A stretch of DNA of 64,000 nt from Bacteroidales bacterium. Lineage in GTDB: Bacteria; Bacteroidota; Bacteroidia; Bacteroidales; JAADJA01. A program made the translations under genes and the position numbers. The stretch covers positions 1 through 64,000 of the forward strand of contig JAFGBL010000172.1 in the NCBI GenBank assembly GCA_016933115.1. The letters run 5' to 3'. Shown here piece by piece: positions 27,271 to 62,819 of this stretch. The notes beneath the pieces are model-generated. The model had not been told where the DNA came from. It did not search any database and saw nothing but the letters and a program-made list of their open reading frames with translations. Numbering within the stretch: position 1 is the stretch's first letter; each line of letters starts with the position of its first letter.

Positions 27271-28614
27271 TCAGATTTCGTTGTTTTTAAGCATTCTATA
27301 GATCGTCGACTTCCCGATATCCAGTTTCTTGGCTACGACCATTACATTGTTATTATATTTTTGAAGATAGTACTTTACAATCTTGTTGACATACCCTTGT
27401 AAGGTATCTTCTTCCAAAAGAAAATCACTTTTTGCATTTGTTGAATTGAAAGTTACGTGCTCGTCCTCAATGACGGCAGTGTTGGTCATAACACAGGCAA
27501 GTTCCATAACTGCTTTCAACTCCCTTACATTACCCGGAAATGGATACTTCATTAGTTTTTCCTGGGCTTTTGCCGAAATATCCAGCTTATTCATTTTATT
27601 TTCCCTGCAGAAATCATCTACAAAAAATTTGGCCAAAATCAGAATATCATTTCCCCGGTAACGAAGTGGCGGAATTTCGATAGGTAATCCCAACAACCTG
27701 TAATAAAGATCTTCACGAAAATTGCCCTTTTGAACCTCCTTAGCTAAATTCCGGTTGGTAGCAACAATTACACGTGCATCAAATTTAACCGGCTTGTTAC
27801 CGCCCACACGGTACAACTCCTTTTCCTGGATCACGCGCAATAACTTGGCTTGCATATTCAGATCCATTTCACCAATCTCATCCAAAAAAATGGTTCCTTT
27901 GTTGGCCACCTCAAATTTTCCTATTTTCCGGGCGTTTGCACCCGTGAATGATCCTTTTTCATGGCCAAACATTTCACTCTCGATCAATTCACTTGGAATC
28001 GCCGTAACATTAATTGGAACAAACGTATGTCTTGACCTTGGGGAATTATAGTGAATGGCTTTAGCGACCAGTTCTTTTCCTGTTCCGGTTTCACCGTAGA
28101 GAGAGACTGTTATATTTGTTTTAGTTGCTTTTTCAATTAGTCCGAATATTTGCTTGATAGCAGGACTATTCCCCTTTATGATCTTCTTAAATTCATATTT
28201 TTTCCCGATTTCTTCCTTCAGGACGTTGATCTCTTCCTTTAATTCCAGGCGTTCCTTGATGTTTTTCAAGGTGTTCCATAACCGTTCCTTGGTATCTTCA
28301 TCCTTTACAAAATAGTCATAGGCTCCTTCCTTTAACAATTTAACGGCAGTTGCTACATCTTCCTGACCCGAAACAATAACGATGGGTATTTCATTGCTGA
28401 ATTCCCTAACCCTTCTAATCACCTCAAAGCCCGACATATCCGGGAGAGAATAATCCAAAGATATGAGTGAAGGATTCAAATATAGATTTTTAAGGCATTC
28501 CGTCCCTGTCTCAAATTTAAAAACTTCATTGTCAGGATTTAACGACAAATGGTACTTGAGCATCTCACCATACAACGGATCATCCTCCACAACGAATATC
28601 TTGAACGAACTCAT
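27271..28614 (-). CDS. Sigma-54-dependent response regulator (NtrC family: receiver-AAA+-HTH)
   Basis: Receiver D in SLDYSLPD; GETGTGKELVAKAIH; ESEMFGHEKGSFTGA; Fis-like HTH VAKKLDIGKSTIYRMLK. Confidence 0.95.
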   Translation of the reverse strand: MSSFKIFVVEDDPLYGEMLKYHLSLNPDNEVFKFETGTECLKNLYLNPSLISLDYSLPDMSGFEVIRRVREFSNEIPIVIVSGQEDVATAVKLLKEGAYDYFVKDEDTKERLWNTLKNIKERLELKEEINVLKEEIGKKYEFKKIIKGNSPAIKQIFGLIEKATKTNITVSLYGETGTGKELVAKAIHYNSPRSRHTFVPINVTAIPSELIESEMFGHEKGSFTGANARKIGKFEVANKGTIFLDEIGEMDLNMQAKLLRVIQEKELYRVGGNKPVKFDARVIVATNRNLAKEVQKGNFREDLYYRLLGLPIEIPPLRYRGNDILILAKFFVDDFCRENKMNKLDISAKAQEKLMKYPFPGNVRELKAVMELACVMTNTAVIEDEHVTFNSTNAKSDFLLEEDTLQGYVNKIVKYYLQKYNNNVMVVAKKLDIGKSTIYRMLKNNEI

Positions 28615-46655: not shown

Positions 46656-47738
46656 TCAATTCACCCGCCTCGCAAAATGCCTTGAATCCCCCCATTCCCC
46701 CAATTTAATCTTATAACCATTCAGCATATCCGATTCATTGATCTTCCGGATCAGATCATCCGCTTCGGTGAGGTAAGGTTTGTTTTCATAGAGGAAATAG
46801 TTCTCCCGGTATTTTAAGGGCGTTAGGTTCGGCATTAATACATTGGCACCGGCACGAATGGCTTGCAGCCGGCCATCATCCACAAGGGAATCGAGTGCGG
46901 TGGCGGCGGCAATGTTGATGTCGGGCATCAAGATTCGTAAAACTGAAATCGTTAGCAGGGAAAGCTCCAGCCTTTCTTTTTTTGGCAATAATTGGTCCCT
47001 GGATTCAAATAACGGCGTATCCTTATGTTCGATATAGGGCCCCATGCCCACCATGTCGACATTGAGGGTTTTCAGCATCAGAAGGTCATCGACAAGGTTT
47101 CCGATGGTTTGGCCGGGCAGTCCGATCATCATGCCTGAGCCTACCTGATAACCGGTTTCTTTTAAATATTGCAATGAATTCAACCGGTTAAGCAGGAAAT
47201 GTTTTTTGTTGTTGGGATGGATCTTATAATACAACTCCGGATCTGAGGCTTCGAACCGCAACAGGTAACGATGGGCTCCGCTGTCGAACCACCTCTTATA
47301 AGTTTCTTTGGTTTGATCTCCGCAGGAAAGGGTGATCCCGAGTTTGCCTTTCGATAGCATTTTAATCTTTTGAACCAGGTTACTGATGATTTCGATAAAT
47401 TCCTGATCCGTCCGTTCTCCCGACTGTATCACCACTGAACCATAGTTGTTCTCAAAAGCATATTCGGCACAACGAAGCACTTCCTCTTCCTCGATACAGT
47501 AGCGTTCCACGTTTTTATTCCCCGCACGGATACCGCAATAGAAGCAGTTTTTTTCGCAGATATTCGAAAACTCGATCAGTCCGCGGAGGTAAATTTCATT
47601 CCCGACTAATTCCGCTCTGACTTCCATAGCTTTTTGAAAGATCAAATCCCGCTCATTCTGATTTTGCACCGAAAGCAACCGGATCAGGTCTTCGCGCGAA
47701 AGCGATTCTTTTTCCAATATATGGGTTATGTCAGGCAT
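46656..47738 (-). CDS. hydE: [FeFe] hydrogenase H-cluster radical SAM maturase HydE
   Basis: CEKNCFYCGIR radical-SAM motif; next to hydF and hydG. Confidence 0.96.
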   Translation of the reverse strand: MPDITHILEKESLSREDLIRLLSVQNQNERDLIFQKAMEVRAELVGNEIYLRGLIEFSNICEKNCFYCGIRAGNKNVERYCIEEEEVLRCAEYAFENNYGSVVIQSGERTDQEFIEIISNLVQKIKMLSKGKLGITLSCGDQTKETYKRWFDSGAHRYLLRFEASDPELYYKIHPNNKKHFLLNRLNSLQYLKETGYQVGSGMMIGLPGQTIGNLVDDLLMLKTLNVDMVGMGPYIEHKDTPLFESRDQLLPKKERLELSLLTISVLRILMPDINIAAATALDSLVDDGRLQAIRAGANVLMPNLTPLKYRENYFLYENKPYLTEADDLIRKINESDMLNGYKIKLGEWGDSRHFARRVN

Positions 47739-48942
47739 ACACTTTCCGGAAAGGTTCCGTTACACGATCAAACATACCATTCACCCAGGCAATGGCCATA
47801 CCGTAGTTGGAGATGGCAATTTCGGCATCTTTGGCAGGTTTCAGGCGGCTCCACAATTGTTTTCTTGTCACCATGCAGCCACCGCACTGGATCAGAAGTT
47901 TGTAGTCTTCCGGGTCACGGGTGATCTTGTCCAGACCGGCCACGATGTCGAAATCTATTTTTTTCCCGGTATATTCACTGATCCATTTCGGAAGTTTATA
48001 ACGCCCGATATCGTCGCAGTTCACCTGGTGCGTGCATGATTCGAGGATCAGTACCCGGTCCCCATCCTGCAATTCCCCGATCTTCGGGGTTCCTTTCAGA
48101 TAAGCCTCAAAATCGCCCCTGAACCGGGCCAGCATTATGCTGAAGCTCGTAAACGGAACAAAAGCCGGCACAATGTCTTTCATTTTTCCAAACACCTGGC
48201 TGTCGGTAATAGCGAGCTTGGGTTTGATGCCTGAAGTTTTGAAAAAATTCTCCACCTGGTCTTCCTTCAGCACAATGTTGATGGCGTCGTTATCGAGCAC
48301 ATCGCGGATGGCCATCACCTGAGGCAGGATCATCCGTCCATCGGGCGCTTCATTGTCGATGGGGGTGATGAGCAGCACGTAATCGCCTTTTCCGATAAGA
48401 TCGCCCAGTAATTTTGGTTTTTGAAAAACCGATTCGGGTATGGTGTTTTTTAAAGATGCAATTACCTTTTCCAGGTTATGTTTTTCTCTGGCGCTGAAAT
48501 CGGTGAGTTCAGCCTTTGTGATCGTCTCAACACGGATCCGGGTTTTATCTTCCAGCGGTTGTTCGTCTGATTTATTATGAACAAGGATATACGGAACTTC
48601 AAAATTATCAAAGGTTTTGATCAAATCTTCTTCAAACCCTTCGAACGTATTTTCTGAGATCATCAACACGGCACAATCCACGGTTTTGAGAACCTGCAGT
48701 GATTTTTCAATCCGCTTTTCCCCGAGTTCCCCCACGTCATCAATTCCGGCAGTATCCACCACGATAGCCGGCCCGATCCCGAATATCTCGATGGATTTTT
48801 TCACCGGGTCCGTAGTCGTGCCAGCCTGTTCGGAAACAATGGCGATCTCTTGTCCGACCAGCGCATTGATGAATGAGCTTTTGCCGGTGTTTCGCCTTCC
48901 GAATATGCCGATGTGGGGTTTGTTGTCGCGGGTTCTGTTCAT
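47731..48942 (-). CDS. hydF: [FeFe] hydrogenase H-cluster maturation GTPase HydF
   Basis: GRRNTGKSSFINAL, VDTAGIDD; C-terminal CTHQ...QCGGC Fe-S motif. Confidence 0.96.
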   Translation of the reverse strand: MNRTRDNKPHIGIFGRRNTGKSSFINALVGQEIAIVSEQAGTTTDPVKKSIEIFGIGPAIVVDTAGIDDVGELGEKRIEKSLQVLKTVDCAVLMISENTFEGFEEDLIKTFDNFEVPYILVHNKSDEQPLEDKTRIRVETITKAELTDFSAREKHNLEKVIASLKNTIPESVFQKPKLLGDLIGKGDYVLLITPIDNEAPDGRMILPQVMAIRDVLDNDAINIVLKEDQVENFFKTSGIKPKLAITDSQVFGKMKDIVPAFVPFTSFSIMLARFRGDFEAYLKGTPKIGELQDGDRVLILESCTHQVNCDDIGRYKLPKWISEYTGKKIDFDIVAGLDKITRDPEDYKLLIQCGGCMVTRKQLWSRLKPAKDAEIAISNYGMAIAWVNGMFDRVTEPFRKVYA

Positions 48943-49128: not shown

Positions 49129-50556
49129 TTAAAAATAAATATCCCGTTCACCCTGTTTGATCTTCTCAATGCGGTTGAGTAACTCATCCTTCCTTCCAAA
49201 ACCATTCAGTTTTTCGATGTTTTCATGAACCACCTTCCAGCCTTTGATCCGGGTTTCGACCGGTGCATAATCGAGCAGGTACTCCACCAGCGTGAGGATG
49301 GCATTTGGGGTGCAATATCTTTTGATGAATCCCGGCACTGAAAACTCCATAAAATGCTGGCCTGTTCTGCCTTTCCGGTAACAGGCCGTGCAAAACGAAG
49401 GCAGGTATCCATGATCCAGCAACTCATCTATCACCTCATTCAAACTCCGGTCATCGCGGATCAGAAATTGCTCTTTGTCGAGATTCTGAGCCTTGTTGAA
49501 TTCTTCTGCATAAGCGCCCAGTTCGATCTTTGTTCCGGCATCTATTTGCGAACAACCGAATTGCAGCACCTCATCCCTCACCTCCTTCGGCTCTCTTGCT
49601 GTCAGTATCATACCGGTGTAAGGAACGGCCAGCCTTAGAATAGCAATGATCCTGACAAACTCCTCATCCGAAACCAGGTAATCCTCATCAATGTCAATAT
49701 CCGAAGCATTTTGCAAACGCGGAAATGAAATGGTATGGGGACCCACATTATAACAGGCTTCCAGATGGTTCACATGCCTTACCAACCCCATCACCTCGTA
49801 TCGCCAGTCGTATAATCCAAATAAAGCCCCGATTCCCACATCATCAATTCCGGCTTCAAAAGCAGTATCGAGCGAAGTGAGCCGGTATTCATAATCTGCC
49901 TTTTTCCCACCCTGATGGTATTTCCGGTATGTATCCGGATGATAGGTTTCCTGAAAAATCTGGTAAGTCCCGATGCCGGCTTCATGTACTTTTTTAAATC
50001 CATCCAGGTCCATGGGGGCCGCATTGATGTTTACCCGCCTGATCTCGCCGTTTCCTTTTTTCACCTGGTAAACCGTTCGAACCGTTTCAGCAATATAATC
50101 AGCCGAATAATTTTTGTGTTCCCCAAAAACCAGGATCAAACGTTTTTGCCCGTTTTCTTCCAGCGCTTCCACATTTTTCACGATCTCATCATGACTCAAA
50201 GTTCTTCGTTCAGCATGGGGATTAGACGCTCTGAACCCGCAGTATTTGCAGTTGTTTGAGCAGAAATTCCCGATATAAAGCGGGGCAAACAATACAATTC
50301 GGTTTCCGTAAACATTTTCCTTCAGCGTTTTTGCTCCCTCTTTGATCAGTTCAATCAGTTCGGGGTCGGTGGTATTTACCAGCACCGCCACATCCTGAAG
50401 GCTCAGCCTTTGTTTGCTGAGTGATTTTTCAATGATCTTTCCAACCACTTTACGGTCGGAAACAGCCGTTCCCAGCATCTTTTCAATTTCATCTGCATCT
50501 ATGAACGGAATCCCGGGACGGTCTTCTATGTTATATTTTTCTGGTGTGAACTTCAT
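49129..50556 (-). CDS. hydG: [FeFe] hydrogenase H-cluster radical SAM maturase HydG
   Basis: CSNNCKYCGFR radical-SAM motif and C-terminal CTACYRKGRTGQHFM. Confidence 0.97.
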   Translation of the reverse strand: MKFTPEKYNIEDRPGIPFIDADEIEKMLGTAVSDRKVVGKIIEKSLSKQRLSLQDVAVLVNTTDPELIELIKEGAKTLKENVYGNRIVLFAPLYIGNFCSNNCKYCGFRASNPHAERRTLSHDEIVKNVEALEENGQKRLILVFGEHKNYSADYIAETVRTVYQVKKGNGEIRRVNINAAPMDLDGFKKVHEAGIGTYQIFQETYHPDTYRKYHQGGKKADYEYRLTSLDTAFEAGIDDVGIGALFGLYDWRYEVMGLVRHVNHLEACYNVGPHTISFPRLQNASDIDIDEDYLVSDEEFVRIIAILRLAVPYTGMILTAREPKEVRDEVLQFGCSQIDAGTKIELGAYAEEFNKAQNLDKEQFLIRDDRSLNEVIDELLDHGYLPSFCTACYRKGRTGQHFMEFSVPGFIKRYCTPNAILTLVEYLLDYAPVETRIKGWKVVHENIEKLNGFGRKDELLNRIEKIKQGERDIYF

Positions 50557-50579: not shown

Positions 50580-51698
50580 TTAGTCCGGAATGGTCACCGT
50601 AAACTTTGAACCCACATCGGGCTGACTTTCCACCCTGATCTCCCCATCGTACAATTCCACCAGTTTTTTCACGATGGAAAGCCCTAACCCGCTGCCGGTT
50701 ATATTTTTTGTTTTCATGTTTTTGATCCTCACAAATTCACCGAAAAGTTTGGAAACCTCCTCTTCGGTCATCCCGATGCCGGTGTCTGCCACCGTAATCT
50801 CCAGTTTGCCGTTTTGTTTTTTCAGCCCCACAATCACTTCTCCGCCATCGCGGTTGTATTTCACAGCGTTGGAAAGCAGGTTGTTGAAGATAATCTCGAT
50901 TTCCCCGCGATCGGCATTGATATAAATCTCCTCTTCCTGAACCGGCTGAATTTTAACATTTCTCTGATTTGCCAATGGTTCAATTGTGTCTCTGGCAATT
51001 CTAAAAACTTCAGTTATATCCACTGGTCTGAAATCGCGGGTTTTAACTCCAGATTCGATCTTCGTAAGGTCGAGCAAATCAGAGATAAGCGTTCTCATGC
51101 CTTTCAGCCTTTCAAGCGACCGTTCGATCATCATTTTGTAATCCCCGATGTTATCACCGACTTGTTTGTCTTTCATGATCTGCAGGTATCCTTCGATTGC
51201 ATTCACCGGGCTTTTTAACTCATGCGACAGCACCGACAGGAACTGGAAGCGCAATTGTTGTCCTTCCTCATTCATTTTCCTGGAGATCCTTTTCAGGAAA
51301 AGGTGTTTGGTGATGTTTTCCATCGCGCTCTTCAACTCCTGCGGGGTGAAAGGTTTCGGGACAAAGTTAAAAGCCCCGTTGTTGGTTGCTTTCACTGCCA
51401 GATCGAGAGAAGCATAAGAAGTGATCATCATCACCTCGGCATCATAATTTTTTTTGTTGATATATTCCAGCACCTCGATGCCGTGGATGCCGGGAAGTTT
51501 ATTGTCCAGCAAAACGATGTCGATCTGTTGGTTGTCGATGGTCTCAATGGCTTTTTCGCCGGTTTCGGCTTCAATGATGCTGAAATCGAAATCTTCATCC
51601 ATGAATGGGTAGCCCACCGTAAAGTTCTGAAGAATGCGGTTTATTCCTGAGCGGATACCTGGCTCATCGTCGACTACAAGTACTTTTAGTGTTGCCAT
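50580..51698 (-). CDS. Hybrid protein: N-terminal receiver, C-terminal HisKA/HATPase
   Basis: VVDDEPGIRSG...LLDNKLPG...PKPF receiver; LSHELKSPVNAIEGY H-box; DTGIGMTEEEVSKLF; GSGLGLSIVKKL. Confidence 0.93.
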   Translation of the reverse strand: MATLKVLVVDDEPGIRSGINRILQNFTVGYPFMDEDFDFSIIEAETGEKAIETIDNQQIDIVLLDNKLPGIHGIEVLEYINKKNYDAEVMMITSYASLDLAVKATNNGAFNFVPKPFTPQELKSAMENITKHLFLKRISRKMNEEGQQLRFQFLSVLSHELKSPVNAIEGYLQIMKDKQVGDNIGDYKMMIERSLERLKGMRTLISDLLDLTKIESGVKTRDFRPVDITEVFRIARDTIEPLANQRNVKIQPVQEEEIYINADRGEIEIIFNNLLSNAVKYNRDGGEVIVGLKKQNGKLEITVADTGIGMTEEEVSKLFGEFVRIKNMKTKNITGSGLGLSIVKKLVELYDGEIRVESQPDVGSKFTVTIPD

Positions 51699-51925: not shown

Positions 51926-52327
51926 CTAAATCTTCAACAATTTATTGATCTCCCTTTGCAACTGATCCGGCCGGATGCCTTTTTCGAGGTACTGATCGGC
52001 TTTGATCCAATTTCGCTCTTCTTCGGTGTCGAGACCGAAGATCATCCCTGTTTCGGCAGTCACGGCTGTGGCAATGATCACCGGTACATCGGGATATTTC
52101 TTTTTTATTTTGAAACTGAGGATAAATCCGCTGTCCTGGTTTTCCATCATCAGATCGAAAATGGCCAGGTTGGGCTTTTCGGTCTCCAGTAACTTTTCTC
52201 CTTCTTTCTGGCTTTCGGCTGTGATCGTATCAAATCCGAATCGCTCCACCTGCATCTTCATCTGCGTGAGGCTGTCGATATCATCGTCAACGATCATGAT
52301 CTTTTTTCTTGCTTCCATTGCTATCAA
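51926..52327 (-). CDS. Stand-alone receiver with extended beta4-beta5 region
   Basis: MIVDDDIDSLTQMKMQVERFG, LAIFDLMMENQDSGF; insertion TGMIFGLDTEEERNWIKADQYLEK. Confidence 0.88.
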   Translation of the reverse strand: MIAMEARKKIMIVDDDIDSLTQMKMQVERFGFDTITAESQKEGEKLLETEKPNLAIFDLMMENQDSGFILSFKIKKKYPDVPVIIATAVTAETGMIFGLDTEEERNWIKADQYLEKGIRPDQLQREINKLLKI

Positions 52328-52329
52328 AT

Positions 52330-54318
52330 TTATAGTTCCCGTTTTCGCGGTATTGTAATTTTAAATGTTGTTCCTGTTGCCCCTTTTTCGGGATCAGCAT
52401 TGGATTGTACCGTCACCTGGCCTTTGTGCATCTTCACAATGCCATAGATCAGCGGAAGGCCCAGGCCGGTTCCTTTACCCATTTCTTTTGTTGTAAAAAA
52501 CGGAGTAAACAATTTATCCATATTTTCTTCGGGAATCCCGATACCTGTATCACTCACATCAATTTCAACTGTACTTCCGTTTCCTGAAAGAGCTACTGTC
52601 AATACTCCTCCGGCAGGCATGGCTTCCACGGCATTTTTTTCAAGATTGGTCAAAACCTGCATCATCTGGTCCTGATCGAGCTCCAGCAACGGGTTGCTGA
52701 GTTCTGAAATAAATTCGATCTTCACACTTTCGGATTTGATCACCGTTTCCAGGCTATGCTTTACAAAAGATTCGATGTTGGTTTCCTGCAGTCTCACCTG
52801 GTTTTTCCGGGCAAAGTTAAGGAGTCCGCCAACGATGCCCTTGCAGCGGTCGGCCTGTTCAACGATCAGTTGGAGGTCTTTACGGATCGGACTGTCTTCC
52901 GGTGCTTCATCTTTCAGGATGTTGGAATACATGGTGATCACTCCCAGCGGATTATTAAGTTCGTGCGCTATCCCTGCCGAAAGTTGTCCCATGCTCGCCA
53001 GCTTCTCCGATTGTTTAAGTGCCAATTGCGTAGTTGCCAGCTTATCATTCGATTCATTCAGTTCCTCGATGGATTTATGGAGTTTTTCGATGGTAAAAGG
53101 CAGGCACATTTCCGTTTCGGCCAATCCTTCCACAATGGCAATGGCATGATCCACACAGGTTTCATACCCGCAGGCACCGCAATTCAGATGATCTTTAAGG
53201 GTATATTTTCCCATCTTAAGCAGTGCTTCTTCAATTTTCTTTTCATCGGGCAATGGAATGCGACGGTCGGCTGGTTTAAAATGCTGGCTCAGATCTACAT
53301 CACCGAAGGTTTCCACCTGTTGTTGCCACTGCTCATTGTCCAGCCTGTTAAGCTTTTCACGAACATAATTGCTGATTTGCGTGCGACGGGTGTACCGTTT
53401 TCCACCTTTCGACATACCCGGACCCATGATACACCCCTCGCAGCAAAGCAGTTCCAGGTGATGCGACTGCAACAAACCGCTCTCAAACTCCTTTACGGCA
53501 TCCCTGAAATTAACCCTTCCTTCCGCCACTACAATATTTCCTTCAGCAATATCGTCCGATCGGTTCACCGTTTGCAACATTCCCCGGCAAACCGGGAAAA
53601 TAGCGCCTTTCCCGGCAAACGGCGGATCGAATTCCGATTCTTCGGCCTCTTCGGCAACAATACCTTCCGAAGCCAGCAGGTATCTTAATTCGGTAAATGT
53701 TATAGCGGCATCCACTTCGTCCGATTCTGCTTTTTTTGCAATACACGGCCCTATGAAAACCACTTTCAGGTTTTCGCCGTGTTTCTTCCGCAAAATCCTT
53801 GTAATGGCAACCATCGGTGAGGCAACAGGTGCCAGGTAAGGCACCAGCCCCGGATGATATTGCCGGATGTAATACACAATAGCAGGGCAATCGGAGGAGA
53901 TATGGGGCTTCTCTCCATTCAAATCCATCAGCTTCTCATACTCACGCGCCACCATATCCGCTCCAAAAGCCACTTCATTCACCAAATCAAACCCTAATGA
54001 GCGAATCATGCCCACCAGTTTCTTAAAGTTCTTTATATCCGAAAATTCGGCTGCAAAACTCGGTGCCAGCAAGGCTGCTACCTTATGCTCCGAAGCCACC
54101 AAAGCCTTCACTTCCGGATTTGAGTTGTAATATACTTTCGCACCCTGACTGCATACTTTCACGCAGTTTCCACATCCGATACACCGTTCGATCATCACCT
54201 CAGCCTGTCCGTTCATGATGCGGATCGCCTTCACCGGGCACTCTCTGACGCAGGTATAGCAAACCTTACACAGATCTTTCTGCGTGTAAACGAGGTTGGT
54301 ATGTGGGGTGTTGGACAT
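52330..54318 (-). CDS. Sensory [FeFe]-hydrogenase-like protein fused to a histidine kinase (2x[4Fe-4S]-H-cluster domain-[4Fe-4S]-HisKA-HATPase)
   Basis: CKVCYTCVRECP/CIGCGNCVKVCS; SSDCPAIV, GPCIAKKAE, LLCCEGCIMGPG; CGACGYETC; IAHELNNPLGVITMY H-box; GTGLGLPLIYGIV. Confidence 0.93.
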   Translation of the reverse strand: MSNTPHTNLVYTQKDLCKVCYTCVRECPVKAIRIMNGQAEVMIERCIGCGNCVKVCSQGAKVYYNSNPEVKALVASEHKVAALLAPSFAAEFSDIKNFKKLVGMIRSLGFDLVNEVAFGADMVAREYEKLMDLNGEKPHISSDCPAIVYYIRQYHPGLVPYLAPVASPMVAITRILRKKHGENLKVVFIGPCIAKKAESDEVDAAITFTELRYLLASEGIVAEEAEESEFDPPFAGKGAIFPVCRGMLQTVNRSDDIAEGNIVVAEGRVNFRDAVKEFESGLLQSHHLELLCCEGCIMGPGMSKGGKRYTRRTQISNYVREKLNRLDNEQWQQQVETFGDVDLSQHFKPADRRIPLPDEKKIEEALLKMGKYTLKDHLNCGACGYETCVDHAIAIVEGLAETEMCLPFTIEKLHKSIEELNESNDKLATTQLALKQSEKLASMGQLSAGIAHELNNPLGVITMYSNILKDEAPEDSPIRKDLQLIVEQADRCKGIVGGLLNFARKNQVRLQETNIESFVKHSLETVIKSESVKIEFISELSNPLLELDQDQMMQVLTNLEKNAVEAMPAGGVLTVALSGNGSTVEIDVSDTGIGIPEENMDKLFTPFFTTKEMGKGTGLGLPLIYGIVKMHKGQVTVQSNADPEKGATGTTFKITIPRKREL

Positions 54319-54531: not shown

Positions 54532-56250
54532 TCACAACGGCACATCCCGCTTCTTATACTCCGTGTGCAACAGGTCATGACTCTTATGCCCGAGGGGTTC
54601 GCCAAGGAATTTTTCATAGAGTTCGATCACTTCCGGATTCTTGTGAGAAACCTTGATGGAATCACGGTCATCAATATCATACAAGGATTTTAACCTTGAC
54701 ATAATTGCACTTTCATCGGCACCGATGTGCTGTCCGCCGCCGGCAATACAGCCGCCCGGACAAGCCATGATCTCGATGAAATGAATGTCATTTCTTCCAT
54801 CCCTGATCTCGTCCAGCAATATTTTTGCATTTTGTAATCCACTCACTACGGCAATTCCCAACTGCAGGTCACCAATCCGGATCTGTGTTTCTTTTCTTCC
54901 GGTTAATCCACGAACAGCATGAATTTTGAATTCCGTCAGTTCTTTGCCGGTGAGTTTAAAATAGGCTGTGCGCAAGGCTGCTTCCATCACTCCACCCGAA
55001 CCGCCGAACAGTTTACCTGCAGAACTGCGGATGCCATGCGGTGAATCGGTCATTTCAGGATCGATGTTGTGCATATCCACACCGTAAAGCCTGATCAACT
55101 GGGCCAGTTCGCGGGTTGTCATCACGGCATCCACATCCGTGATACCCTGATGGGTCATATCTTCGCGCTGAGCCTCGAATTTTTTTGCCGTACAAGGCAT
55201 GATCGACACAGAATAAATATCCTCAGGTTTTGTCGCGATTTTTTCAGCGAAATAAGATTTGATAATAGCTCCCAGCATTTGCTGCGGTGATTTGCAACTC
55301 GAAACATTGGGCAGAAAATCAACAGAAAATTCTTCGGCATATTTTACCCAGGCGGGACAGCAACTGGTGATCAGCGGCAAAGGTCCGTTATTGGTAATCC
55401 GGTGGATCAGTTCAGCCGATTCTTCCATGATCGTGAGGTCAGCCGAAAAACTGGTGTCGAAAACGTAGTCGAATCCGATCTTTCGCAAAGCGGCGTTCAT
55501 GATGCCGTTTACATCCCTTCCGGGTTCCATGCCGAATTCTTCAGCCAGTGAAACCGAAATAGCGGGAGCATATTGAATCACAACCTTTTTGGAAGGATTG
55601 TTCAACGCCATCTGGATTTCATTCAAATGACATTTTTCGCTCAAAGCGCCGGTCGGGCAAACCATGATACATTGGCCGCAATTCACACAACTCGAAGTAT
55701 TCAATCCTTTGTTGAATGAAGTCCCGATCAGGGTTTTGCTTCCGCGATTAATATAGTCAATGGCCGAAACACCCATCACTTCCTCACACACCCTCACACA
55801 ACGTCCGCAAAGGATACATTTGTCCGGATCGCGGGTAATACTTGGACTTGAAAGATCCTTGTTGAAATTATTTTTCACACCTGAAACCCTTCGTTCGGTC
55901 ACATGGTGTTCGACTGCCAGATCCTGCAGGGTACAATTCCCGTTCCGGACACAGTAAAGACAATCATCGGGGTGATTTGAAAGCAGCAGTTCCACAATCA
56001 TCTTTCGGGCCTCAATAACCCGTGTCGTATGCGTTTTGACCTTCATGCCCTCTTCCACCGGATAGGAGCAGGATGTAACCAACCTCCCCGTATTTTCGTG
56101 TTCAACCACACACATCCTGCACGCTCCCGACGGAAAATAATTTTTCATGTGGCAAAGCGTAGGCACCTTGATCCCGTTGCGATTCATCACATCCAGGATG
56201 GTTTCGCCCGCTTTGGCCTCAAATATCTTATTATTGACTTCAATATTCAT
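54532..56250 (-). CDS. hydA: [FeFe] hydrogenase catalytic subunit (HydA/HndD type)
   Basis: N-terminal 2Fe-2S (CHMKNYFPSGACRMCVVE), 2x4Fe-4S, H-cluster motifs TSCCPAW, MPCTAKKFE, MACPGGCIAGGG. Confidence 0.96.
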   Translation of the reverse strand: MNIEVNNKIFEAKAGETILDVMNRNGIKVPTLCHMKNYFPSGACRMCVVEHENTGRLVTSCSYPVEEGMKVKTHTTRVIEARKMIVELLLSNHPDDCLYCVRNGNCTLQDLAVEHHVTERRVSGVKNNFNKDLSSPSITRDPDKCILCGRCVRVCEEVMGVSAIDYINRGSKTLIGTSFNKGLNTSSCVNCGQCIMVCPTGALSEKCHLNEIQMALNNPSKKVVIQYAPAISVSLAEEFGMEPGRDVNGIMNAALRKIGFDYVFDTSFSADLTIMEESAELIHRITNNGPLPLITSCCPAWVKYAEEFSVDFLPNVSSCKSPQQMLGAIIKSYFAEKIATKPEDIYSVSIMPCTAKKFEAQREDMTHQGITDVDAVMTTRELAQLIRLYGVDMHNIDPEMTDSPHGIRSSAGKLFGGSGGVMEAALRTAYFKLTGKELTEFKIHAVRGLTGRKETQIRIGDLQLGIAVVSGLQNAKILLDEIRDGRNDIHFIEIMACPGGCIAGGGQHIGADESAIMSRLKSLYDIDDRDSIKVSHKNPEVIELYEKFLGEPLGHKSHDLLHTEYKKRDVPL

Positions 56251-56267: not shown

Positions 56268-58220
56268 TTAAGCAACCACACTGATCGCATCAAATTTACA
56301 GGCTTCTTCGCAGGAACCGCAACCGATGCATTTATCTTCCACGATGAAATGCGGTGCTTTTTTGGTTCCGATGATGGCTCCGGTAGGGCATTTTCTTGCA
56401 CATACCGTGCAACCTGTACATTTATCCACATTTATCCTGAAAGTCCTCAATTCAGTGCAAACTCCCGGCTGACATTTCCTTTCGTAGATATGCGATTCGT
56501 ATTCATCGCGGAACCACTTGATCGTGCTGAGCACCGGGTTTGGAGCTGTTTGTCCGAGTCCGCAAAGCGAAGTTTCTTTGATCACCTTTCCGAGTTTTTC
56601 AAGTTGTATGATCCCTTTGAACCGTTGCAGCGCTTCTTTTTCGCTGTTTCCGTTGGGTTTATGGGTGATGCTTTCCAAAATCTCAAGCATCCTTCTTGTA
56701 CCTTCACGACAGGGAATACATTTCCCGCAGCTTTCGCGCTGGATGAAATCCATGAAAAATTTGGCTACATCCACCATGCAGGTGTCTTCATCCATCACCA
56801 CCAGGCCACCGGAACCCATCATGGCTCCAACACTGATCAGTGATTCATAATCAATCTGGATGTCGAGGTTTTGTTCGGTGATACAGCCGCCCGAAGGACC
56901 GCCGATCTGCACCGATTTGAATTTTTTGTTGTTGGGAATTCCACCGGCAATATCAAAAATGATCTCGCGCACCGTCGTTCCCATCGGGATTTCCACAAGA
57001 CCCGTCAGGTTGATTTTCCCGGAAAGGGCAAAAACCTTGGTTCCTTTGCTTTTTTCAGTCCCGATTGAAGCAAACCATTCTTCTCCACGAGCCAATATTT
57101 CCGGCACATTCGACAGGGTTTCCACATTGTTGATGATGGTCGGTTTGCCGAACAATCCGCTGATGGCAGGAAACGGTGGCCTCGGTCTCGGCATTCCGCG
57201 CATTCCTTCGATACTGTGGATCAAAGCCGTTTCTTCACCACAAACAAATGCTCCGGCTCCCATCTTGATAATGATGTCGAAACTAAAACCGCTATCGAAA
57301 ATGTTTTTCCCAAGCAAACCATAATCTCTGGCCAGGTTCAGGGCAATTTTTAACCGTTCGATGGCCAACGGATATTCGGCACGGATGTAAACATAGCCTT
57401 TGGTAGCGCCGATTCCGTAGGCAGAGATCGCCATGCCTTCGATGAGTCTGTGCGGATCGCCTTCGATCACAGCCCGATCCATGAATGCTCCCGGATCTCC
57501 CTCATCGGCATTGCAAATCAGGTATTTTTGATCGGCTTCGGCGCCATTGGCAAACTTCCATTTTTTCCCGGTTGGGAACCCTCCGCCGCCACGGCCGCGT
57601 AATCCGCTCTTTTCAATCTTGTCGCATACTTCAATGGAAGTATAGGTTTTCAGTGTATCCAGGAAACTTTTGTAGCCGCCCCTAGCAATGTATTCATTAA
57701 TATCGATGGGGTCAACAATTCCGCAGTTTTTCAGAACGATCCGCTTTTGCGGTGCAAAAAACGGGTGTTCATCAATAAAAGGTACATTCTCCCAGGCTTC
57801 CAGTTTTTCGGAACGGAATTGTCCCAGTATGTTCGGATTGGTTGAATCAAGTGAGAAAACGCTCTCAAGGACTTCATTCACCTTATCGCCGGTTACATTT
57901 TTAAAAGAGATACGGTTTTTCCCCGGAAGCCGCACATCGAGCAGAGGTTCAGCAGCACAAAAACCGATACAGCCCACCTTGATCACTTCTACATCCAGCT
58001 CATGATCTTCGATGAACCGCTGCGTTTCGAGCCAGGTCTTTTCAGCCCCGGCGCCCAGTCCGCAGGTTCCGGTTCCGATGAAGATCACCGGTTTGCTGAC
58101 AATATCACGCCTCAGGTCTGACAATTCCCCGATCACGAACGGATCCACTTCATGAGCCGGGCCGTTCAGCACCTTTTCGATCAGGAATTCCTTCATATTC
58201 ATTGTTCTTGCCGTTTCCAT
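56268..58220 (-). CDS. hydB: NuoF-like hydrogenase subunit (HydB/HndC)
   Basis: N-terminal thioredoxin-like 2Fe-2S; GRGGGGFPTGKKW; SCGKCIPCREG; C-terminal 2x4Fe-4S. Confidence 0.95.
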   Translation of the reverse strand: METARTMNMKEFLIEKVLNGPAHEVDPFVIGELSDLRRDIVSKPVIFIGTGTCGLGAGAEKTWLETQRFIEDHELDVEVIKVGCIGFCAAEPLLDVRLPGKNRISFKNVTGDKVNEVLESVFSLDSTNPNILGQFRSEKLEAWENVPFIDEHPFFAPQKRIVLKNCGIVDPIDINEYIARGGYKSFLDTLKTYTSIEVCDKIEKSGLRGRGGGGFPTGKKWKFANGAEADQKYLICNADEGDPGAFMDRAVIEGDPHRLIEGMAISAYGIGATKGYVYIRAEYPLAIERLKIALNLARDYGLLGKNIFDSGFSFDIIIKMGAGAFVCGEETALIHSIEGMRGMPRPRPPFPAISGLFGKPTIINNVETLSNVPEILARGEEWFASIGTEKSKGTKVFALSGKINLTGLVEIPMGTTVREIIFDIAGGIPNNKKFKSVQIGGPSGGCITEQNLDIQIDYESLISVGAMMGSGGLVVMDEDTCMVDVAKFFMDFIQRESCGKCIPCREGTRRMLEILESITHKPNGNSEKEALQRFKGIIQLEKLGKVIKETSLCGLGQTAPNPVLSTIKWFRDEYESHIYERKCQPGVCTELRTFRINVDKCTGCTVCARKCPTGAIIGTKKAPHFIVEDKCIGCGSCEEACKFDAISVVA

Positions 58221-58684
58221 TACACTTCCTTGTTTTTCAGATTTTCGATGATCTCAACCAGCGACTGTTCGGTGACCTTTGCATGAAAATTCCCATTGAT
58301 GTTGATAACGGGAGCCAATCCGCAGGCCCCGATACAAGCCACCACTTCGATGCTGAACATACCGTCGCGGGTCGTTTGACCTGCCTTTGCTTTGAGTAAT
58401 TTTTCGAGTTTATCCAGTACGGTTGCCGATCCAAGCACATGACATGCTGTTCCGCGGCACACCTGGATGTGGTATTTACCTTTGGGTTCGAACCTGAACT
58501 GGTTGTAAAAGGTCGCAACGCCATAGATCTTGCTGGTTGGGATACCCAGCCTCCTACCCACTTCAGCAATCGCACGCTGAGAGAGAAACCCTTCATTTTC
58601 CTGTATTTCCTGAAGAATGGGTATCAGGCTGTCGCGTTTTGCGTCTCCTCTTGCTTCCAGTATTTCCGCTATCCCTTTTTTCAT
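58220..58684 (-). CDS. hydC: NuoE-like [2Fe-2S] hydrogenase subunit (HydC/HndA)
   Basis: CRGTACHVLGS...CIGACGLAPVININ; TAATG coupling with hydB. Confidence 0.95.
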   Translation of the reverse strand: MKKGIAEILEARGDAKRDSLIPILQEIQENEGFLSQRAIAEVGRRLGIPTSKIYGVATFYNQFRFEPKGKYHIQVCRGTACHVLGSATVLDKLEKLLKAKAGQTTRDGMFSIEVVACIGACGLAPVININGNFHAKVTEQSLVEIIENLKNKEV

Positions 58685-58725: not shown

Positions 58726-59244
58726 TTAATTTGAGTGGAAACTTACCTTTTTGCCAAGCAGTTCTTTGATCTCGGGTAAAAGTTTTTTCGAGTCAACGGG
58801 CTTTTTCAGGAATCCATCCACCGGCAGCCAGATGGTTTTGCCATCGTCGTTGCGATAATCAATGCCTGCTTTTCCGCTTACGATATCCTTCATGAGGATC
58901 ACCTGCAATTCCTTGTATTTGGGATCCTGACGGAATTCACGTGCCATTTCCCTTACACTTTCCTTGGTGGTGGTGAAAACTTCGATGGAGGTTTGCATCA
59001 GAATAGGCATGTTTCTAAAAGCCTGTTCGTTCACCAGCGCTTCAGCCAGTTCGAAACCTTCGTAATGGGTTGTCATCATCACGTCGAGGATGGCCAGGTC
59101 GGGATGGATTTCACGGGCCAGTTGCAGGCCTTCATCCTTATTGTTTGCCGAAAATACCTCGTAACCTTCATTCTCAAGAATGGTGCTGATTACATTGATG
59201 ATATCGATGTCGTCGTCTACGATTAAAATTTTTTGTGTGTTCAT
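58726..59244 (-). CDS. Response regulator receiver with an extended beta4-beta5 insertion
   Basis: ILIVDDDIDIINVISTILENEGYEV, LAILDVMMTTHYEGFEL; insertion to DDGKTIWLPVDGFLKKPVDS. Confidence 0.88.
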   Translation of the reverse strand: MNTQKILIVDDDIDIINVISTILENEGYEVFSANNKDEGLQLAREIHPDLAILDVMMTTHYEGFELAEALVNEQAFRNMPILMQTSIEVFTTTKESVREMAREFRQDPKYKELQVILMKDIVSGKAGIDYRNDDGKTIWLPVDGFLKKPVDSKKLLPEIKELLGKKVSFHSN

Positions 59245-59269
59245 GATACTGTTTTTTCAGGGTTCATAT

Positions 59270-59707
59270 TTAATTAACTAATGAATGATTATCGAATCTG
59301 AGATTCACTGTTTGCAGGCCGGGCGACAGGTAAAACCTTTCTTCCTTGCTGTTCACGATCTCATGCAACAGGTCATAATTATCGTTTGATTTTGCGAGAT
59401 AACCGCTCACACCGGCTGTGATCATTTTATTGATATAACGCTGGTTTTCGAGTGAAGAAAAAGCGATAAACCGGATGTTTGGAAATTTCCGGTGGCCGAT
59501 CAGTGTAGCTTCAAAGCCGCCCATTCCAGTCATAGCCACATCCAGGAAAACGATGTCGGCTTTTTCATTTTCAAGCAGTTCGAGCAGTTGCAGACCATTT
59601 TCCACCTCTCCAATAATTTTAACATTCCCGATGTTGAGAAGAATTCTTTTCAATCCTTCGCGGAAATATTTATTATTGTCGGCGATTATGATCTTCTGTT
59701 TTTTCAC
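59270..59707 (-). CDS. NarL-type receiver domain protein lacking a DNA-binding domain
   Basis: IIIADNNKYFREGLKRILL, VFLDVAMTGMGGFEA; ends after the linker, no LuxR HTH. Confidence 0.85.
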   Translation of the reverse strand: MKKQKIIIADNNKYFREGLKRILLNIGNVKIIGEVENGLQLLELLENEKADIVFLDVAMTGMGGFEATLIGHRKFPNIRFIAFSSLENQRYINKMITAGVSGYLAKSNDNYDLLHEIVNSKEERFYLSPGLQTVNLRFDNHSLVN

Positions 59708-60070
59708 TTTATCAATTTTGATCCAAAAGTAGCATCTGACCCCCCCCTACACAAGAGCGAAAGACGCAAAGGGAAAACAGGTGAAAATACCTGAGATGAA
59801 ATTCCAATTTTCGTTGTTTCAATTAGTTATATGTGATAATTTGTTAATTGTAAAGCTTTGAATGGGTATTGATAAAATTCCAAAATCCAATAAAAGGGTT
59901 GTTGTTATTCAAATAACAGCAAGGGTGAAATTTTGTATTTTATTTGAAAAAAATGAAAATAAATTTTTAGCAGGTGTTTTACACGGGTGGATGGTTTTGG
60001 AGTTTTACGAAGTAATCGGAAAAACCTATTATCCCCGGTCTGTGGCGAACGCGAACCTAACTGGTCAATT

Positions 60071-60706
60071 TTAGTTCACCAACCCATTCTTTATCGCAAA
60101 CATCACCAAATTGGGTGCATTTTTAGCGCCGGTCTTTTCAAACAAGCGGGCACGAAAGCCATCCACAGTGCGGCTGCTGACGCCGAGAAAATTGGCAATC
60201 TCAACATTGGAGTAGCCTTTGCAGATCAACTCCAACACTTCCTGTTCGCGGTCGGTAAGGTTAATTGATGTGTCCTTGTGTTTGGGCTTGAGGTACATAT
60301 TGACAGAACTCATGAACTCTTCGGAAAAATAACTTTCATCTTCGAGCACAAGGTTTATGGCACGCTCAAGTTCTTCTGAAGTAGTTTTTTTAAGGAGAAA
60401 TCCAGATGCGCCCGCTTCGATCATTTTATTGAAATAACTGATCTCCTCGAACATGGTAAGGGCAATGACCTTGATTCCGGGATATTTGGCCGACACTTTT
60501 TTGGTAGCTTCGATGCCGTCCATCACGGGCATTTTGATGTCCATCAAAATTACATCGGCGGGTTGTTTTTTGAGAAGTTCGAGCAATTCATTGCCATTGG
60601 AGGCTTCCCCAACAACTTTTACAAAATCGATCTCATTAAGAATCGTATACAATCCTTTCCTGAAAATAACGTGGTCGTCGACGATGATTATTTTAGCTAT
60701 TTCCAT
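60071..60706 (-). CDS. NarL/FixJ family response regulator (receiver-LuxR HTH)
   Basis: IIIVDDHVIFRKGLYTIL; LTDREQEVLELICKGYSNVEIANFLGVSSRTVDGFRARLFEKTGA. Confidence 0.95.
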   Translation of the reverse strand: MEIAKIIIVDDHVIFRKGLYTILNEIDFVKVVGEASNGNELLELLKKQPADVILMDIKMPVMDGIEATKKVSAKYPGIKVIALTMFEEISYFNKMIEAGASGFLLKKTTSEELERAINLVLEDESYFSEEFMSSVNMYLKPKHKDTSINLTDREQEVLELICKGYSNVEIANFLGVSSRTVDGFRARLFEKTGAKNAPNLVMFAIKNGLVN

Positions 60707-62819
60707 TGTTTAGTTGTTTTGGTTTCAGTTTTAAAGATGCGATCAAAAACATCCCTTCGCCCGGTTTGGTGTTGATGTCCACCGTTCCCTTCACCGATTT
60801 GATCTTGTTTACTATATTATTCAATCCCAATCCCGAATTTTGCTTCATCGCTTCTTCCAAGTCAAAACCGATACCGTCATCGCGGTAATACAAAATTATT
60901 TGATTTTCATAACTTTTCAGTTCAATCTTGATGTTTTTGGCCGATGCATGCCGAATCGTATTGTTGATCAACTCCTTTACTGACTGATAGAGCACAGTCT
61001 CCTCAATACCCCGCTGCTCAATGGTATACTGATAAGTAAACACCTCAATGTTGATCGACTCCGTTTTTTTTATAAAGTTGCAAAAATCATTGACTGCAGC
61101 GGCCAATCCGAAATCCTGCAGAATATTGGGCCGGATGTTGCGTGAGATCGTCCGGGTAGAAGTAATTGCCATATCAACCAGTTCTTCAATGTTTCGCACA
61201 GCTTCTTCTTCATCGATCTTTTTGAAATTTTTCTTTTTCAGAAGATCGGTGTACAATTTAACGGTTGAAAGAATTGGTGCAAGATCATCGTGGAGATCAG
61301 CCGCAAAACGCTTTCTTTCGTTTTCCTCGGTTTGAATAATGGTAGTCAGGATGCGGTCTTCCACTTCCTTGCGCTCGGAAATATCACGGGCAATAGTAAG
61401 AATCATTTTTTCACCTTTGTAGTCAAACACACGGCTTTTCATTTCAACCGGAATGGTTAAACCACTTTTGGATATGATCTCAGATTCATACTGATGTTGG
61501 CCAAATTTTCGGATCCTATTGATGTAAGTATCTACCTTTTGTTTTAACAGCTCAGGTTTGATTTGCCTGATATTCATCTTCATAAATTCCTCACGCGAAT
61601 ATCCAAGGTCATCACAAGCGACCTGGTTCACTTCGATAAAGTTGCCTTCAAAATCGATCACAAAAATATCATCGGAACTATTGTTGAACAGGGTCTGAAA
61701 ATGGCGTTCGGATTGTTCGAGTGCCTGCTGCGTTTGTTTAAGCTTTTTGGAGGAACGTTCAAGTTGCGATAGGAATTTCCTTACATTCTCAGCCGTAATA
61801 AAATATACAAAAACCGATAAGGCAAGAATAATAAAACCTGCAATTATCAGTGAATTATAGATCACCTCGCGAACAAGTGAACCCGTTTCGTCTTTCAGGG
61901 GAACTGCGGCAGCAATGTAGACCTTGAAATCGGGATAATAATCCCATGCAGCGATTTTTTTAATCCTGTCGCGTTTCAAAGTATAAGTCGCTACTCCTGA
62001 AGGTTTTGAAAGAATGGTTTCGATGATCGCCTCATCAGTCCACAATTCGCCGGTAGCGTAGGGATGCACTATGAAACGCCCGGTTTCATCCAACACAAAT
62101 GGGAATCCTTTTTTTCCGATTTTCAGGGAAATGATTTTCTGATGTAACTCTTCAATATCTTTTTCCCTGTCACCTACATATAACATTCCAATAATTTCAT
62201 TTCCTCTATAAATGGGTTCATATGCTGTAATATACCAACTATCAACCACAAAGGCCCTTCCAATGTAGGTTTGACCTTTTTCCACAGTTTTTACAACGGG
62301 TGAATCATTGGGGATAAAAGTGCCAACCGCACGATTGCCATCAGTTTTCATCACGTTGGTCGAAATCCTCATGTATCCGATGTCGATCTTCTGGAAAATA
62401 GTAGCCGTACCTCCCACCAGTTTGTGAATATCATCGACGAAATTATAATTTTGGTATAGAGATTTCCCATTGTATTTCCATACTTTTACCGTTGCGCTGT
62501 GGGTTGAACCCGTGACCTGGTTCAGGACGGGAATCCTTACTGTTTCATTTCCAATGGTGAGTTCTCCGTTATAAAACAACCGGTGGGCGACTTTCAGGTC
62601 TGATTTCACCTTGGCCAGTTTCAGGTCGCGCTCCCGCTCAAACATCTTTTTCAGAGTTTGGACTTCCAGGGTCAAATGCCTTTCAAGTGAGTCATTGATA
62701 TTTTTTTTCAGGTTATTGACAGAAAAAAGTGTTACCGCACTTATTGCTACAACAATTCCAGTTATAATTGGAAGATATAAACGAAACTTTGGTGACAACC
62801 ATTTTTTCTCTTTAAACAT
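60693..62819 (-). CDS. Sensor histidine kinase (Cache-PAS-HisKA_3-HATPase)
   Basis: Periplasmic Cache-like region between TMs, PAS (HFQTLFNNSSDDIFVIDFEGNFIEVNQ), FAADLHDDLAPILSTVKLYTDLL phosphoacceptor; overlaps the NarL regulator. Confidence 0.93.
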   Translation of the reverse strand: MFKEKKWLSPKFRLYLPIITGIVVAISAVTLFSVNNLKKNINDSLERHLTLEVQTLKKMFERERDLKLAKVKSDLKVAHRLFYNGELTIGNETVRIPVLNQVTGSTHSATVKVWKYNGKSLYQNYNFVDDIHKLVGGTATIFQKIDIGYMRISTNVMKTDGNRAVGTFIPNDSPVVKTVEKGQTYIGRAFVVDSWYITAYEPIYRGNEIIGMLYVGDREKDIEELHQKIISLKIGKKGFPFVLDETGRFIVHPYATGELWTDEAIIETILSKPSGVATYTLKRDRIKKIAAWDYYPDFKVYIAAAVPLKDETGSLVREVIYNSLIIAGFIILALSVFVYFITAENVRKFLSQLERSSKKLKQTQQALEQSERHFQTLFNNSSDDIFVIDFEGNFIEVNQVACDDLGYSREEFMKMNIRQIKPELLKQKVDTYINRIRKFGQHQYESEIISKSGLTIPVEMKSRVFDYKGEKMILTIARDISERKEVEDRILTTIIQTEENERKRFAADLHDDLAPILSTVKLYTDLLKKKNFKKIDEEEAVRNIEELVDMAITSTRTISRNIRPNILQDFGLAAAVNDFCNFIKKTESINIEVFTYQYTIEQRGIEETVLYQSVKELINNTIRHASAKNIKIELKSYENQIILYYRDDGIGFDLEEAMKQNSGLGLNNIVNKIKSVKGTVDINTKPGEGMFLIASLKLKPKQLNNGNS

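Follow-up and report, generated by a model that had tools for sequence, protein, structure and literature searches.

A histidine kinase-fused, sensory-type [FeFe]-hydrogenase family in Bacteroidota with aspartate at the relay cysteine position

In HydDB, group C1 of the [FeFe] hydrogenases comprises histidine kinase-linked proteins and is described as putative (PMC5037454), and one Bacteroidota C1 gene, ING2E5A_0849 of Petrimonas mucosa, adjoins hnd genes (PMC7768429). A search of the literature turned up no experimental demonstration that a histidine kinase-fused group C protein senses H2. Two other sensory proteins, TamHydS and TmHydS, are active (PMC8163306, PMC10055695), and the C-terminal Fe-S cluster of TamHydS is not reduced by H2, a change in secondary structure having been considered instead (PMC13104023). 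The E252/E289 proton path proposed for TamHydS is described as specific to group D apart from E289. Among the sensory hydrogenases of HydDB at large, the relay residue is Ala in 43%, Cys in 17%, Pro in 10% and Ser in 10%, with Asp unnamed (PMC10055695). The locus described here bears on two questions: whether H2 turnover is a requirement for these proteins or binding is enough, and by what route their state is conveyed to the output domain.

Aspartate is the one relay replacement known to keep engineered hydrogenases working. In the C299D variant of CpI, the carboxylate lies 2.7 Å from the ADT amine and on the conserved water; C299D and C169D keep 30-80% of H2 release with no build-up of Hhyd, and C299A is dead (PMC6226526). 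In three enzymes carrying the exchange (C299D, C169D and C298D), 10-58% of evolution and 0.02-4% of oxidation are left and Hox is favoured (PMC9563086). Overall, the published Cys-to-Asp catalytic variants keep about 10-80% of H2 evolution, which Ala abolishes (PMC6226526, PMC9563086).

Domain anatomy and gene neighbourhood

The window, the whole stretch of DNA analysed here, covers 64,000 nucleotides from a Bacteroidales bacterium. It contains the gene hydS-HK, whose features are as follows.

52330..54318, minus strand: hydS-HK, sensory [FeFe]-hydrogenase domain plus histidine kinase; confirmed open reading frame of 662 aa
54151..54270, minus strand: N-terminal 2x[4Fe-4S] ferredoxin sites, Cys 17/20/23/27 and 46/49/52/56 (Pfam Fer4_10, Fer4 x2)
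53419..54084, minus strand: H-cluster domain Fe_hyd_lg_C, residues 79-300 (Pfam, E 7.3e-46)
53104..53181, minus strand: C-terminal Fe-S motif C380-x2-C383-x4-C388-x16-C405 with invariant Cys (PF04060 at 378-407)
52906..53103, minus strand: predicted long helix, residues 406-471, from the last Fe-S Cys to the DHp helix with no PAS between (AlphaFold2, low confidence at 426-452)
Residues 443-506 of hydS-HK: HisKA (Pfam, 51.6 bits)
52963..52965, minus strand: His452, predicted autophosphorylation site (H in 128/128)
52342..52677, minus strand: HATPase_c, residues 548-659 (Pfam, 88.5 bits)

The H-domain profile PF02906 scores 157.2 bits, above its gathering score of 22.1, and all eight ferredoxin-site cysteines are invariant in sequence set A1. 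A first-pass annotation made from the letters alone had placed a CGACGYETC Fe-S domain and a full HisKA-HATPase kinase downstream of the H-domain, and the Pfam matches to PF04060, HisKA and HATPase_c bear this out. Pfam gave no PAS match in hydS-HK, where the Fe-S motif ends at residue 405 and HisKA starts at 443. In the AlphaFold2 model (mean pLDDT 79.9, pTM 0.60, most of the H-domain at 85-97), a single helix runs from residue 406, right behind C405, into the DHp helix with H452, its segment 426-452 having pLDDT below 50; Foldseek searches with this model returned [FeFe] hydrogenases and the ZraS kinase. The H, N, G1, F and G2 boxes of two-component kinases are all present, with N562, D590, G592, G616 and G618 found in 128/128 homologues and position 608 occupied by F in 123 and Y in five. 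A histidine kinase linked to the H-domain is what defines C1 in HydDB, and hydS-HK has one with invariant catalytic residues. Its architecture matches C1 (definition in PMC5037454) and makes it a putative member, with C3 as a possible alternative because other kinase-bearing proteins have been placed there (PMC11406978).

The surrounding genes form a minus-strand block in the order hydC-hydB-hydA-hydS-HK-REC1-RECHK-hydG-hydF-hydE.

58220..58684, minus strand: hydC (NuoE-like; profile match)
56268..58220, minus strand: hydB (NuoF-like; profile match)
54532..56250, minus strand: hydA, catalytic subunit with the C-E-E-S proton path (NCBIfam group A6, 803 bits)
51926..52327, minus strand: REC1, stand-alone REC directly downstream of hydS-HK (Pfam Response_reg; phospho-acceptor Asp in 123/123)
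50580..51698, minus strand: RECHK, REC-HisKA-HATPase (REC Asp in 80/80; His in all 79 rows that have a residue there)
49129..50556, minus strand: hydG maturase (TIGR03955, 503 bits)
47731..48942, minus strand: hydF maturase (TIGR03918, 478 bits)
46656..47738, minus strand: hydE maturase (TIGR03956, 330 bits)

This arrangement recurs among relatives, with hydA directly upstream of hydS-HK in 89 of the 101 loci with room for it and either REC1 or RECHK following it in 140 of 142; in 18 of these, no gene was detected ahead of RECHK. Within the genus, HydA and HydS occur together in the two hydrogenase-bearing genomes and are both absent from two others, which are 92-94% complete. The conserved block encodes no DNA-binding output; REC1 stands alone, and RECHK could pass phosphate on. 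A promoter and terminator scan of the hyd cluster gave matches at chance level, and no inverted repeat was found in the gap between hydA and hydS. Elsewhere in the window, positions 58726-62819, on the same strand and directly upstream of hydC, hold REC2, REC3, a NarL/LuxR-type regulator and a Cache-PAS-HisKA_3 kinase, all four of which occur together only in some relatives. An NtrC-type sigma-54 activator with a REC domain lies at 27271-28614, as a possible output unlinked to the block.

The H-cluster pocket and the clade that carries aspartate

The codons that concern the pocket are listed with their conservation in 114 close relatives; CpI residue numbers beyond those named in the cited papers were counted on the motif in this analysis.

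53890..53892, minus strand: Asp143, at the relay position (C299 of CpI); D in 110/114
53887..53889, minus strand: Cys144, H-cluster ligand (C300 of CpI); 114/114
53743..53745, minus strand: Cys192 of GPC, H-cluster ligand (C355 of CpI); 114/114
53440..53445, minus strand: Cys292, extra, non-ligand and clade-specific (112/114), and Cys293, H-cluster ligand (C499 of CpI; 114/114)
53431..53433, minus strand: Cys296, H-cluster ligand (C503 of CpI); 114/114

Alignment upholds the initial reading of the first two motifs: TSCCPAW becomes SSDCPAI (residues 141-147), with D143 at the relay Cys, and MPC becomes GPC (190-192), all three canonical motifs (TSCCPAW, MPC and MAC) being kept in the neighbouring HydA. 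When the PDB was searched with phmmer, the best CpI chain was that of the engineered C299D enzyme (6glz), which at 69.9 bits, against 65.5 for 4xdc, tops all other CpI chains and therefore gives independent support for D143 as the equivalent of C299. The third motif had been read as LLC in place of MAC and as part of a C-x3-C ligand pair. Aligned with the neighbouring HydA and, by HMMER, with the solved TkHydA1 and HDCR HydA2, LELLCCEGC carries a one-residue deletion, and this gap gives LCC (L291-C292-C293) for MAC; all four ligands are indeed kept, but the last two form C-x2-C (C293 and C296, 114/114). Cys292 adds a further thiol where CpI has A498. This position is F in 17/17 more distant HydS-HKs (for which "gut-type" is a shorthand label, not one drawn from habitat data), Y, F or H in the 48 copies of a paralogue, HydS2, S at locus L154 and A at locus L148; the motif correspondingly reads LFCEGC in the gut-type proteins and FYCEGC in HydS2. 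Such variation at position 292, set against the invariance of C293 and C296 throughout the kinase-type proteins, shows that C292 does not serve as a ligand and rules out a C-x3-C pair that includes it.

Around the cluster, the CN-side residues K195 (K358) and P86 are found in 114/114 close relatives and S87 in 113/114. The second sphere has changed (M353 to G190, M497 to Leu291 and C299 to D143), which, beside a catalytic hydrogenase and its maturases, agrees with the earlier description of a sensory-type, kinase-fused H-domain with an altered pocket. The canonical outer proton path is lost as well, with E279 replaced by Y127 (Y in 112/114), S319 by A163 and E282 by Leu130. The group A relay and pocket (TSCCP, MPC and MAC with C299, E279, S319 and E282) is thus absent from hydS-HK, which has D143, Y127, A163, Leu130, G190 and Leu291 instead. 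Y127 is present in all classes and is therefore not specific to the clade with Asp.

Relatives were sampled from 80 genome loci, 297 genomes of the phylum, 294 of the order and 40 extra regions picked for lower similarity; for other phyla, the residue frequencies come from PMC10055695 and a small number of plasmid records. In the 114 close relatives, position 143 holds D 110 times, S three times and N once; it is P in eight, A in six and S in three of the 17 more distant Bacteroidota kinases (L089-L105), and N in 38/48 HydS2 copies. The initial expectation that Asp may be uncommon here gives way to Asp as the norm of its clade, an outcome that the first-pass annotation had itself listed as counter-evidence, and a private mutation or sequencing error is ruled out by its presence in 110/114 relatives. 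In a quick H-domain tree of 143 rows built with the trait columns removed, a single branch sets the rows with Asp (73 tree rows) apart. Fewest-change counts give one relay change inside this clade (tree length 33.5) vs 18 outside it (39.9). The binomial p of 1.6e-4 is indicative only, given how quickly the tree was built and that uniformity was the reason for picking this clade. Next to the H-cluster, two changes, D143 and C292, separate it from the other kinases; its other specific positions are 9, 22, 34, 91, 116, 212, 301 and 391. As far as these alignments reach, Asp143 is no quirk of one protein but is fixed across a large family.

Several variants were observed beside this family. HydS2, a PAS-ended HydS paralogue, is a divergent gene upstream of hydC in L006, L007, L012, L017, L018, L025, L026, L166, L167 and many other loci, and forms one clade of 42 tree rows. 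Its relay is mostly Asn, its K358 equivalent mostly A, T, S or N, and its C293 ligand is kept in 23/48 copies, the position being Asp in 15 and otherwise N, H, R or K; none of the four ligands is left in the copies of L166 and L167. HydS2 is possibly a pseudo-hydrogenase partner of a working sensor, or may use Asp/Asn ligation of a [4Fe-4S] cluster. No SpoIIE/PP2C output was seen in HydS2, whose C-terminal end gives weak PAS matches; the SpoIIE gene adjoining Ruminococcus albus HydS is a separate gene. At some loci the HydA beside HydS also has a non-Cys relay (Asp, Ala, Ser or Asn), with Asp in L038, L074, L007, L050, L122, L139 and L140 and Ala in L070, L073, L075, L077 and L078; they represent naturally occurring relay variants within HydABC-type clusters. 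These HydAs lack E279 in 21/21 cases, and the Asp-type ones retain E282 and S/T319. A coupled loss of the relay Cys and E279 was rejected: its Fisher p of 5e-14 reflects shared ancestry, because no more than five independent pairs can be drawn from the tree, which is not significant. Very divergent HydA-like open reading frames (L162:5774-7456 and L164:5160-6764; long branches, scores 257 and 162), with F or L at the relay, lie beside a normal Asp-type HydS-HK. An Asp-type HydS-HK (60% identical) occurs on a contig labelled Spirochaetia (L076), where REC-HK is present and hydABC and REC1 were not found, through transfer or mis-binning. Finally, L186:6001-8310, from the same phylum, joins an H-domain with Pro at the relay to a methyl-accepting chemotaxis domain (C2-like).

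Proposed function and comparison with known systems

We consider it fairly likely that hydS-HK is an H-cluster-bearing, H2-responsive histidine kinase that controls the adjacent HydABC through REC and REC-HK, with Asp143 as first proton acceptor. This cytoplasmic sensor would have its H-domain loaded with matured H-cluster by the HydEFG of its own gene cluster. H2 would be split heterolytically at the H-cluster, with Asp143 standing in for the relay Cys as acceptor of the ADT amine's proton, and the electrons would exit via the pair of N-terminal [4Fe-4S] clusters. Reduction or protonation, or a conformational change that goes with it, would then be relayed to the DHp domain by the C-terminal Fe-S module, which lies on the route any signal has to take, and by the helix that follows C405; the signal may be redox or conformational, because the TamHydS cluster at the equivalent site is not reduced by H2. 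Autophosphorylation of His452 would be set by this signal, and phosphate would move to the adjacent REC and/or REC-HK, adjusting the bifurcating-type HydABC hydrogenase. In this way hydS-HK probably reports the H2 level to the anaerobic Bacteroidota cell; we infer the direction of signalling, the receiver that serves as partner and the genes affected.

The part assigned to Asp143 deserves separate weighing. The first-pass annotation had proposed a slow or non-turnover sensor, which does not follow from Asp, because Cys-to-Asp variants keep 10-80% of H2 evolution with the carboxylate at hydrogen-bonding distance (2.7 Å) from the ADT amine. By analogy with them, Asp argues for a working first proton step over a dead relay, short of proof of turnover. 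With E279, S319 and E282 replaced as well, the native protein may or may not turn over, any proton route behind Asp would be new, with Y127 and C292 as its first candidates, and Asp may only tune the cluster. The same analogy offers a counterpoint to an H2-sensing role, since the variants lose most H2 oxidation, the direction that a sensor needs (PMC9563086). A bolder proposal, which we regard as tentative and somewhat improbable, is that, in a widespread natural clade of H2-sensing kinases, the fixed Asp and co-fixed Cys292 restore a functional initial proton step at the H-cluster, with the outer path rebuilt behind it, and that the kinase reads the protonation of Asp143 as one component of its signal.

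The alternative that survives best, though we think it unlikely, keeps the initial proposal: the H-cluster would bind H2 and stay in one state, or turn over very slowly, and Asp would only shift the redox potential and the ADT hydrogen bonding. The replacement of E279, S319 and E282 by Y, A and L and of M353 and M497 by G and L would suit such a protein, as would the slowness of TmHydS and TamHydS (PMC10055695, PMC8163306) and the 0.02-4% of H2 oxidation left in Cys-to-Asp variants (PMC9563086). However, TmHydS and TamHydS do turn over despite Ala at the relay, C299D and C169D release H2 at 30-80% without accumulating Hhyd (PMC6226526), and Asp is nearly invariant in its clade while the relay position drifts elsewhere.

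H-clusters bind CO and O2. A sensor of these gases, or of NADH/ferredoxin poise, acting at the H-cluster or Fe-S clusters would fit this chemistry and the tie to a bifurcating-type HydABC with NADH and ferredoxin as partners, yet the maps of window genes place no CO- or O2-related gene in the conserved block, and TmHydS and TamHydS are comparatively CO-tolerant (PMC8163306), so we rate an input other than H2 as quite improbable. Least credible, and in our view highly improbable, is a redox sensor whose Fe-S clusters alone set kinase activity with the H-domain as a structural relic, which HydS2 copies lacking ligands in many genomes and Hydrogenedentota group C1 proteins reportedly without recognisable H-cluster motifs (PMC11406978) would favour, but which is opposed by the HydEFG encoded in the same cluster and by the conservation of the four ligands and K195 (114/114), with P86 and S87 almost as constant, across branches that add up to a tree length of 33.5.

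In the H2-responsive kinase that we favour, sensor and output kinase share one polypeptide, and autophosphorylation could therefore serve as a direct readout of an H2 response. Nature also supplies matched relay sets, with Asp in the hydS-HK clade, Ala, Pro or Ser in distant relatives and Asn in the HydS2 paralogue.

Like P. mucosa ING2E5A_0849, hydS-HK joins an H-domain to a histidine kinase beside a multisubunit bifurcating-type hydrogenase in Bacteroidota. Among the homologues aligned here, the more distant Bacteroidota kinases (40-46% identical) differ in having A, P or S at the relay and F at 292, where the hydS-HK clade has D and C. The spacing Cx2Cx4Cx16C is exactly that of the M2e and M2f sensory proteins TamHydS and TmHydS (PMC8163306). 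With TmHydS of Thermotoga maritima (group C, M2f; PMC10055695), hydS-HK shares the H-domain, the C-terminal Fe-S site, a replaced relay Cys and Gly for M353; TmHydS has Ala at the relay, Ser at M497 and the PAS domain that follows the Fe-S motif in its type, whereas hydS-HK has Asp, Leu and a direct kinase fusion without PAS. With TamHydS of Thermoanaerobacter mathranii (group D, M2e; PMC8163306, PMC10407848, PMC13104023), it shares this motif, Leu for M497, the lack of PAS and adjoining hydrogenase genes, whereas TamHydS differs by its Ala at the relay and Ser at M353 and by lacking a fused kinase; the group D traits of Ser/Thr for M353 and no fused signalling domain are replaced in hydS-HK by G190 and the kinase. 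Finally, the engineered CpI C299D (PDB 6glz, 8pvm; PMC6226526) carries its Asp at the corresponding site next to the ADT bridge, in an enzyme whose remaining proton path is intact, and hydS-HK is its natural counterpart.
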